Positions 37,459 to 38,749 of a stretch of 64,000 nt of DNA are shown piece after piece. The position numbers and the translations under genes are program-made. Within the stretch, counting starts at the first letter, position 1; the number at the start of each line of letters is the position of its first letter. The notes under the pieces were generated by a model. It worked only from the letters and a program-made list of their open reading frames with translations. It was not told the origin of the DNA and searched no databases. Origin of the DNA: Rheinheimera riviphila (GTDB lineage: Bacteria > Pseudomonadota > Gammaproteobacteria > Enterobacterales > Alteromonadaceae); assembly GCF_004005945.1 (NCBI RefSeq), contig NZ_SACS01000004.1, positions 124,001 through 188,000 of the forward strand. The letters are read 5' to 3'.

Positions 37459-37485
37459 AAAAAAAAGCCCGCTTAAGCAGCGGGC
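37459..37485 (-). terminator. minus-strand Rho-independent terminator
   Basis: GCCCGCT pairs with AGCGGGC around TAAGC. On the minus strand it is followed by at least eight T residues. No minus-strand protein gene precedes it, so it most likely ends the predicted small RNA. Confidence 0.85.
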
Positions 37486-37631
37486 GAATGCAACAAGTTG
37501 AAGTAGAACTTCAAAAATCCAGGGAACATGTTTGACTAGCCCGACTCAATCCGAAGACAAATCCAACTAATCTGTGATCTTTACTACAGTGAAACACCCT
37601 CGGGTCACACCGTTGCGCTAGCTCAGAACAC
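37459..37631 (-). ncRNA. predicted orphan small RNA between ruvB and tolQ
   Basis: A minus-strand transcript of about 173 nt is bounded by a good sigma-70 promoter and a strong terminator. Its sequence can fold: CTAGC and GCTAG (37536-37540 with 37617-37621) could close a domain of about 85 nt containing an ACCC/GGGT hairpin, and a perfect 7-bp hairpin (TTGAAGT/ACTTCAA, 37498-37514) precedes the terminator. It does not look like 6S, tmRNA, SRP RNA, RNase P RNA or Spot 42. It includes an 18-codon ORF (37473-37529) without a clear ribosome-binding site. Function unknown. Confidence 0.5.
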
Positions 37632-37637
37632 GGGCGC

Positions 37638-37666
37638 ATTCTAGGGAATTAGACTATTTACTTCAA
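37638..37666 (-). promoter_or_regulatory. sigma-70 promoter of the predicted small RNA
   Basis: On the minus strand: TTGAAG, a 17-base spacer and TAGAAT, followed by a GC-rich start region. Directed toward the terminator at 37459-37485. Confidence 0.6.
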
Positions 37667-37861
37667 ACGAGAAAAATTGACCAAATTCATTAGAAAAAAT
37701 AATGCGAATATTAATTCATCTTTAGTGAATATCAAGTGGCATCTTAATGTAAGCCAATATTTTAAAGGCTCCTAGCCTCTCAAGATGAACATATTATGAA
37801 TATTTGAGATTATTTTTTTCATGATTAACATGCGCAAGTGCGGCTTTTGACTCTTTGTCGT

Positions 37862-38062: not shown

Positions 38063-38749
38063 GTGACTGGTCAACTTTCAATTTTACACCTTATTCTTGG
38101 CGCCAGTATTCCGGTGATGTGCGTGATGCTCATCCTCAGCGCCGCATCCATTGTGTCCTGGGCCATGATCATCCAGCGCAGCAAAGCGTTAAAAGAAGCC
38201 ACTGAAGATACCCGCAAGTTTGAAGATCGGTTCTGGTCTGGTGTTGATTTATCTAAGCTGTACAACGAAGTCAGTGCCCGTGCCAACGTCAGCGGCATGG
38301 AATCGTTATTTAAAGCAGGTTTTAAAGAATTCGCCCGTCTGCACAAAACCAACGCCCGTCAGCCAAGCGCGGTGATGGAAGGCACCCAAAGAGCAATGCG
38401 GGTGTGTCTGTCGCGTGAAGTTGAACGACTTGAAATGCATTTACCTTTTCTGGCAACTGTTGGGTCTATCAGCCCATACATCGGCTTGTTTGGTACCGTT
38501 TGGGGCATCATGACCTCATTTATTGCATTGGGTGCGGTGCAACAAGCCACATTAGCGATGGTCGCGCCTGGTATTGCCGAAGCGCTGATCGCAACGGCCA
38601 TTGGTTTATTCGCAGCAATTCCAGCTGTTATCGCCTACAACAGATTTTCGCACCGGGTTGAACAACTCGAAAATGCTTATGCCAACTTTGTCGAAGAGTT
38701 TTCGAACATTCTGCATCGTCAGGCAGTTAGCGGTGGAGACGGTCAATAA
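38063..38749 (+). CDS. tolQ: Tol-Pal system proton channel subunit TolQ
   Basis: With TolR it forms the proton-motive-force motor that energises TolA at the constriction site. The 228-residue protein (E. coli 230) has three membrane helices (about 12-34, 132-154 and 166-188) and the ExbB/TolQ/MotA signature [18 protein letters not shown]. The GTG at 38063 is nine bases after AGAGG and gives the family length; an upstream ATG at 37997 lies before the predicted transcription start. Its stop overlaps the tolR start. Confidence 0.93.

Follow-up and report, generated by a model that had tools for sequence, protein, structure and literature searches.

The best-described system that resembles the small RNA (sRNA) gene reported here is gcvB. 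In the available parts of the published accounts, the E. coli gcvA-gcvB region has two 15-bp ATTAG-n5-CTAAT repeats whose centers map to positions -65 and -43 relative to the gcvB start (PMC5002191), and the GcvA consensus is T-N11-A containing CTAAT (PMC3658693). As for the GcvB RNA, those parts place Con-I in a domain rich in G and U and Con-II between +124 and +161 (PMC3658540), and they describe both elements as common to GcvBs (PMC3658540, PMC9409037). R2 is described there as highly conserved, but it may only serve to repress cycA (PMC9409037).

Csr/Rsm-type sRNAs have been described in Alteromonas (Aln1a-c) and Pseudoalteromonas (Pf1-Pf3) (PMC5864184, PMC11882849). Like the RNA reported here, they are sRNAs encoded between genes, and the bacterial family is the same. 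The two were compared by GGA count alone; our RNA has 3 GGA motifs, and the available text gives 9 to 25 for Pf1-Pf3. Many GGA motifs are expected of a Csr/Rsm sRNA, and this assignment was rejected. A start-site study of Alteromonas macleodii Te101 reported 127 chromosomal sRNAs, and neither ruvB nor tolQ appeared in the available portion of its main text (PMC5864184); an RNA of the type described here may be among the 127. We found no description of a ruvB-tolQ RNA in the accessible text of the open-licence literature.

The window that we analyzed was a 64,000-nt stretch of the Rheinheimera riviphila genome. The locus of interest was the 673-nt gap between the ruvB stop codon (37389) and the tolQ start codon, which was taken as the GTG at 38063. 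A first-pass annotation had proposed that the minus strand of this gap encodes an orphan sRNA with a promoter and a terminator of its own, and the features that we assigned to the locus are shown in Table 1. The terminator stem (37485-37467) was GCCCGCT-GCTTA-AGCGGGC, which was followed by 8 T nucleotides and located about 150 nt past the promoter. The predicted 5' end near 37631 agreed with the promoter and with the operator spacing described below.

Table 1. Predicted features of the sRNA locus (positions in the window)
Feature	Position	Strand	Basis or remark
IR1 ATTATTTTTTCTAAT	37689..37703	-	9/10 vs ATTAG-N5-CTAAT; center 37696, -65 from predicted start
IR2 GTCAATTTTTCTCGT (weak)	37667..37681	-	5/10; center 37674, -43 from predicted start
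-35-like hexamer TTGAAG	37661..37666	-	pattern scan
-10 hexamer TAGAAT	37638..37643	-	pattern scan; 17-nt spacer to TTGAAG
Predicted sRNA, ~172 nt	37460..37631	-	both ends predicted from sequence
Hairpin just 5' of conserved seed	37536..37570	-	covaries among 33 sequences
Candidate seed A GUUCCCUGGA, R2-like	37518..37527	-	invariant in 20/20 rows of alignment A1
Candidate seed B CUUCAACUUGUUG (CUUCAACACUUGUUG in other genera)	37491..37503	-	conservation among copies
18-codon ORF M-F-P-G-F-L-K-F-Y-F-N-L-L-H-S-P-A-A-stop	37473..37529	-	judged not a gene
Intrinsic terminator and T tract	37459..37485	-	pattern scan

The pattern scan found the promoter and the terminator, yet alone it was weak evidence: a 1.4-kb region contained 7 promoter-like sites versus 2.3 in shuffles and 2 terminators versus 1.5 in shuffles. 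Folding of 174 nt yielded -53.3 kcal/mol (z = -1.9), and 5 of 200 shuffles folded equally well. That pattern scans alone barely exceed shuffles would fit a locus with no transcription, in which a promoter and a terminator stand by chance between genes, but the conservation, synteny, covariation, and operator described below make this very improbable. The gene was judged to be above chance because of its conservation, its covariation, and its conserved operator. An antisense or leader role was rejected, as the RNA sits between ruvB and tolQ and is antiparallel to both.

At gathering score, an Rfam search of the whole window yielded nothing but nine tRNAs, and no family was found in the gap. A permissive search of the gap yielded weak, mostly terminator-like matches such as isrD (E 0.022). 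ArcZ and SdsR carry a UUCCCUGG seed, and their promoters and loci differ from those of the RNA in the window; neither family was matched in Rfam scans of the gap and of 19 loci. The 5' end GTxTTCTGAGCTAGCGCA (37600-37631) was common to copies from distant clades (L045, L048, L155, L166, and L183). It contains CUGAGCUA, an 8-nt complement of the tRNA stretch UAGCUCAG. This complementarity was not significant, and we claim no link to tRNA because shuffles reached at least 8 nt in 25 of 300 cases.

The sRNA gene is present in one copy in its own genome. When a 261-nt query was used in BLASTN, 36 of 98 related genomes yielded a match: 22/22 in the genus (own genome included), 36/59 in the family, and 0/39 outside the family. 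The family count includes weak, uninspected matches in four genomes (G036, G043, G050, and G052) and a match in G033 that was probably due to chance because the covariance model placed the copy of that genome elsewhere. Copies in the genus aligned over most of their length, and copies elsewhere aligned mostly over the 3' ~75 nt and sometimes over the 5' ~35 nt. All 30 BLAST-found loci contained GTTCCCTGGA, then CTTCA(AC)ACTTGTTG (TTAA in one), and then the terminator.

A pattern that required GTTCCCTGGA, TTCA, and ACTTGTTG was found in at least 119 stretches of a named genome collection. The 80 matches whose source names were listed came from Rheinheimera, Alishewanella, Alkalimonas, Arsukibacterium, Alteromonas, Pseudoalteromonas, Bowmanella, Aestuariibacter, Salinimonas, and their kin, as well as from unclassified gammaproteobacteria. 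Matches in a Blastocatellia genome (L036) and an unclassified bacterium (L056) were dropped as chance. The homologue set consisted of the 117 other loci among the 119 stretches listed, and the operator set consisted of 113, since four loci with a short upstream region were dropped. Because the search pattern required them, the pattern letters are conserved in the 117-locus set by construction; thus, their invariance rests on the BLAST-found set (30/30 loci, 20 of which form alignment A1).

The position of the RNA gene was also conserved. In 116 of the 117 homologous loci listed, ruvB and/or tolQ adjoined the RNA gene in antiparallel order. The RNA gene was located between the two genes and antiparallel to both in 90/90 stretches that held both, and its position fit in the 26 further stretches that held just one. 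The 8-kb stretch of the Aliiglaciecola locus L045 contained neither ruvB nor tolQ. In the Aliiglaciecola copy (L045/L025), the promoter and both ends were conserved away from these genes.

We also searched 295 genomes of the order with a covariance model (model R1) of the 3' part of the RNA, and 37 were matched: 22 of the 24 genomes listed for the family and 15 of the 271 others. Among these 15 outside-family matches, the GcvA-type repeat was present in 5/5 f15 copies and in the 3 inspected of 6 f20 copies. The inspected f20 copies were located between ruvB and tolQ. In the case of the f15 copies, tolQ was ~3 kb away and no ruvB was found in the 7-kb stretch. In one f15 genome, a prolyl-oligopeptidase-like ORF that diverges from the RNA separates the RNA gene from ybgC (L172:444-3495). 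The matches in f9 (L176) and f27 (L189) were taken as false because they had no repeat upstream and no ruvB or tolQ. The inspection left out G158 (f6), G330 (f7), G100, G166, and G180 (f20), and second hits in G039 and G174.

The hairpin just 5' of GUUCCCUGGA had a similar placement in nearly all of 38 Rheinheimera-type copies despite very different sequence. As judged from 33 sequences and 11 pairs, 96.1% of the cells were standard pairs. Two-sided changes occurred in 9 of the 11 pairs, with as many in 6 of 500 shuffles, and 74 cells were changed on both sides versus a shuffled mean of 20.7, a number that 0 of 500 shuffles reached. Sliding the hairpin partner by 1 to 3 columns reduced the pairing to 37 to 54%. 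For the 19 Pseudoalteromonas-type copies, two-sided changes occurred in 5 of 10 pairs (as many in 1 of 500 shuffles), and the number of pair types was not raised (9 versus 9.3). The last stem pair of the terminator was also compensated among homologues (U-A, G-C, or C-G). The first-pass annotation had named conserved stems with compensatory changes as supporting evidence, and we found them: 22/22 genomes in the genus had the RNA, and the hairpin covaried.

The probability that seed A was unpaired in the RNA of the window was 0.83 to 0.94 at letters 3 to 7 and 0.31 to 0.65 at the other letters. Two structural observations were made in other groups. A small hairpin with an invariant GGATAAAACC was present in 19/19 Pseudoalteromonas-type copies (alignment A3, columns 83 to 92), and, in the f15 copies (L170-L172, L175, and L177), two stems flanked a U/G-rich sequence that was TTGTTTTGGTAGTGTGATTG or closely similar to it. 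By eye, this U/G-rich sequence occupies the place of the GcvB R1 seed.

The first-pass annotation had also noted an 18-codon Phe-rich ORF and thought that the RNA might have a dual function. The frame is indeed uninterrupted in the window, and the same 18 residues are encoded in this frame by two named homologues. However, its ATG was missing in 69 of the 117 homologues listed, and the remaining 48 yielded 33 different frames. Because the frame was not conserved in these copies, a dual function is not supported, and we consider a dual-function RNA or a small-protein gene for this peptide to be highly unlikely. Taken together, the conservation, synteny, and covariation backed the view that the sRNA has an independent gene, complete with promoter and terminator, and the minus-strand promoter, ~172-nt RNA, and intrinsic terminator in the gap were confirmed from sequence and conservation.

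The first-pass annotation missed two putative GcvA repeats, IR1 and IR2, which by sequence match are at the positions published for the GcvA repeats of E. coli gcvB; the IR1 match was strong and the IR2 match was weak. The center of IR1 was 53 nt from the start of the -10 hexamer in the window. A ATTAGTTTTTCTAAT sequence or a near variant was found upstream of almost all copies. Specifically, 111 of the 113 loci listed had an IR1 that matched in at least 8/10 positions and was followed, 52 to 54 nt after its center, by a -10 box; dinucleotide-preserving shuffles yielded a mean of 1.9 and a maximum of 5 in 30 runs. When loci were tallied by the IR1-to-(-10) spacing, 75 were at 52 to 53 nt and 38 at 54 to 55 nt; the numbers at other spacings were 17 (40 to 41 nt), 15 (42 to 43 nt), and 10 (56 to 57 nt). 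IR2 was modestly enriched: 98 of 111 loci had a match of at least 5/10 located 21 to 23 nt past IR1, versus 43% in local shuffles.

All 10 Rfam-recognized GcvB loci of other families adjoin gcvA. The gcvB strand carried a repeat of at least 7/10 with a -10 box 53 to 54 nt on in 10/10 of these loci, in a test that used a 7/10 threshold and a spacing of 50 to 56 nt, that mononucleotide shuffles of the 113 loci passed in 32.6, and that 3 of the 10 loci also passed on the wrong strand. In the genome of the window, ATTAKTTTTTNTAAT with at most 1 mismatch occurred 11 times versus 9 times for the reversed control; there were two exact occurrences, one of which was that of the sRNA gene. Because the repeat alone was not rare, the operator argument rests on position and conservation.

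In this genome, the Hfq gene was present, and GcvA was identified on contig C20 at 461.9 bits (cut-off, 288). The gene for gcvT had ATTATTAAATCTAAT upstream and a second repeat, ATTAGCAGAACTAAT, ~350 nt further up; a ~300-nt leader was located between the GcvA-type repeat and gcvT (L227:1100-1500). No such repeat was found at 2 or fewer mismatches in the 3.9-kb locus of its own gcvA. Each of 20 further genomes yielded a single gcvA match at E <= 1e-80, and the gcvA start was placed by a script in 14. In 13/14 genomes (raw count), the 400 nt preceding gcvA contained a repeat that matched in at least 8/10 positions; three of the 13 (G162, G066, and G069) belong to GcvB-bearing families. A 9-10/10 repeat was present there in 10/14; in G003, the script found no repeat of at least 8/10 in this region. 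An inspection by eye of 12 of the 20 genomes, which left out G078, also revealed gcvA repeats in G132, G072, G096, G026, and G045.

The inspection by eye further revealed a short ORF that diverges from gcvA, begins like a signal peptide, and is preceded by a repeat of the ATTAG-N5-CTAAT type in ten genomes (G051, G048, G025, G035, G058, G026, G045, and three f15 genomes; loci L317, L320, L325, L326, L328, L327, L329, L321, L323, and L324). By eye, this ORF takes the place beside gcvA that gcvB holds in other families. The arrangement was not found at gcvA in G039 or in the own genome of the window.

The GcvA assignment was made from sequence, T-N11-A sites are common in the LysR class, and only one of the 26 matches to the GcvA model in the genome was above the cut-off. 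Thus, a different LysR-type regulator that recognizes a similar half-site might drive the RNA, with no relation to glycine. We regard this as improbable, since the 15-bp repeat recurs at the gcvA promoters of relatives and the spacing is identical to that of gcvB promoters.

We next consider how the RNA itself compares to GcvB (RF00022; gathering score, 42 bits). RF00022 was found above the cut-off in 10 of 98 genomes and in 0/59 in the family, with filters whose stringency loses some weak matches, and no RF00022 match was found in the window copy up to E 5. The copy in G048 matched RF00022 at 28.8 bits over positions 1 to 204, starting near the predicted start and below the cut-off; RF00022 was the best Rfam family for this copy, and CACUUCCUGU was aligned to UUCCUGGA. 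In a 19-locus scan, three more copies (L166, L168, and L169) matched the full RF00022 model at 19.6 to 21.2 bits (E 1.7 to 4.5), and other Rfam families outscored RF00022 on shorter stretches of these copies. Such sub-threshold scores prove little alone because unrelated places in the same genomes reached 27 to 38 bits.

The reciprocal comparison used covariance model R1, which was built from window-type RNA alone, with no GcvB included. In L206, the model matched the 3' end of the GcvB at 25.9 bits (E 4e-4, a rough value), and it matched the same place in the GcvBs of L210, L202, and L208 at 10.7 to 12.2 bits. One unrelated terminator scored 12.5 bits, and six other GcvBs yielded a terminator match at most. 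The two RNAs also share a hairpin, a UUCC(C)UG stretch, and a terminator in the same order. CUUCCUGU is presumably Con-II (R2), and two models aligned UUCCCUGGA to CUUCCUGU(A), which is similar but not identical. A 14-letter G/U-rich motif, which we take to be Con-I, was obtained from the GcvB loci of other families. This R1 seed motif had 0 to 1 mismatches in 10/10 GcvBs versus 4 to 6 mismatches of 14 in 111/111 of the RNAs listed. Unlike GcvB, therefore, the RNA in the window lacks R1; it also scores under the Rfam gathering score, and its gene is located between ruvB and tolQ rather than beside and divergent from gcvA. In addition, its R2-like stretch reads GUUCCCUGGA, and another conserved sequence, CUUCAA(CA)CUUGUUG, comes after it.

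Because the matches were below the cut-off and the R1 seed was missing, the RNA was not filed as GcvB. The same differences could mean that the sRNA is activated by GcvA and not descended from GcvB; that is, an unrelated gene acquired a GcvA promoter and, by convergence, a UUCCCUGG seed. The missing R1 in all 111 RNAs listed, the different locus, the sub-cut-off matches to Rfam GcvB in few copies, and the exported-protein-like ORF that occupies the site beside gcvA in ten genomes are consistent with this origin. On the other hand, the match of the G048 copy to the GcvB model over its full length, the weaker matches in three more copies, the reciprocal matches of covariance model R1 to GcvB 3' ends, and the shared order of elements point away from it, and we consider it unlikely. 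Descent from GcvB with loss of R1 appears to be the most likely history. The "orphan" part of the first-pass description was not borne out, because the GcvB-type promoter architecture and the weak reciprocal model matches point to GcvB.

The search for targets yielded no conserved one, as judged from seed-complement patterns near start codons in 8 genomes and from homologues in the genus. The pattern TCCAGGGAA-N0-18-ATG had 24 matches in the 8 genomes versus 8 for the reversed control, and 8 of the 24 were the sRNA gene itself (counting a doubled match in G015). RCAACAAGT-N0-18-ATG had 326 matches versus 310 for the control; in the own genome, the numbers were 54 and 21. Among the matches listed, the mRNA for an S9 peptidase in G038 was perfectly complementary to the RNA over 15 nt at the ribosome-binding region (L228:1490-1520). 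The S9 peptidase was rejected as a conserved target; 22 genomes were searched for homologues, and TCCAGGGAA was absent at the start codon in 21/21 genus homologues whose start was shown (L298 was left out).

This locus, which separates two housekeeping genes in a marine-type bacterium, looks like a real, widely conserved gene for a small regulatory RNA. We favor, with moderate confidence, the reading that it is a trans-acting sRNA gene activated by GcvA, the glycine-sensing LysR-type regulator, and probably a strongly diverged relative of GcvB located between ruvB and tolQ. The promoter looks as if it were built like that of gcvB, and the body seems to be so changed that standard RNA searches miss the RNA. 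When glycine is plentiful, GcvA would bind IR1 and IR2 and activate the promoter. The sRNA is probably Hfq dependent, and its U-tail would bind Hfq. UUCCCUGGA (R2-like) and CUUGUUG would then pair with the ribosome-binding regions of mRNAs and repress them, and the most likely effect would be to damp the import or degradation of amino acids and peptides. R1, the dominant G/U-rich seed of other GcvBs, is absent.

More tentatively, the GcvA regulon may have been rewired in the Alteromonadaceae and two further families. In such a case, GcvB would have moved to the ruvB-tolQ locus without R1 and would use R2 and a new second seed, and the old site beside gcvA would be occupied by a gene that is under GcvA control and encodes a short exported protein. 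A natural GcvB-like RNA with an R2-like seed and without R1 would allow a direct test of what R2 does. Given that R2 may only repress cycA according to the available part of the published account (PMC9409037), a relative that relies on R2 would be informative. The finding would also mean that Alteromonas, Pseudoalteromonas, and Rheinheimera possess a glycine-responsive sRNA overlooked by annotation at Rfam gathering scores.
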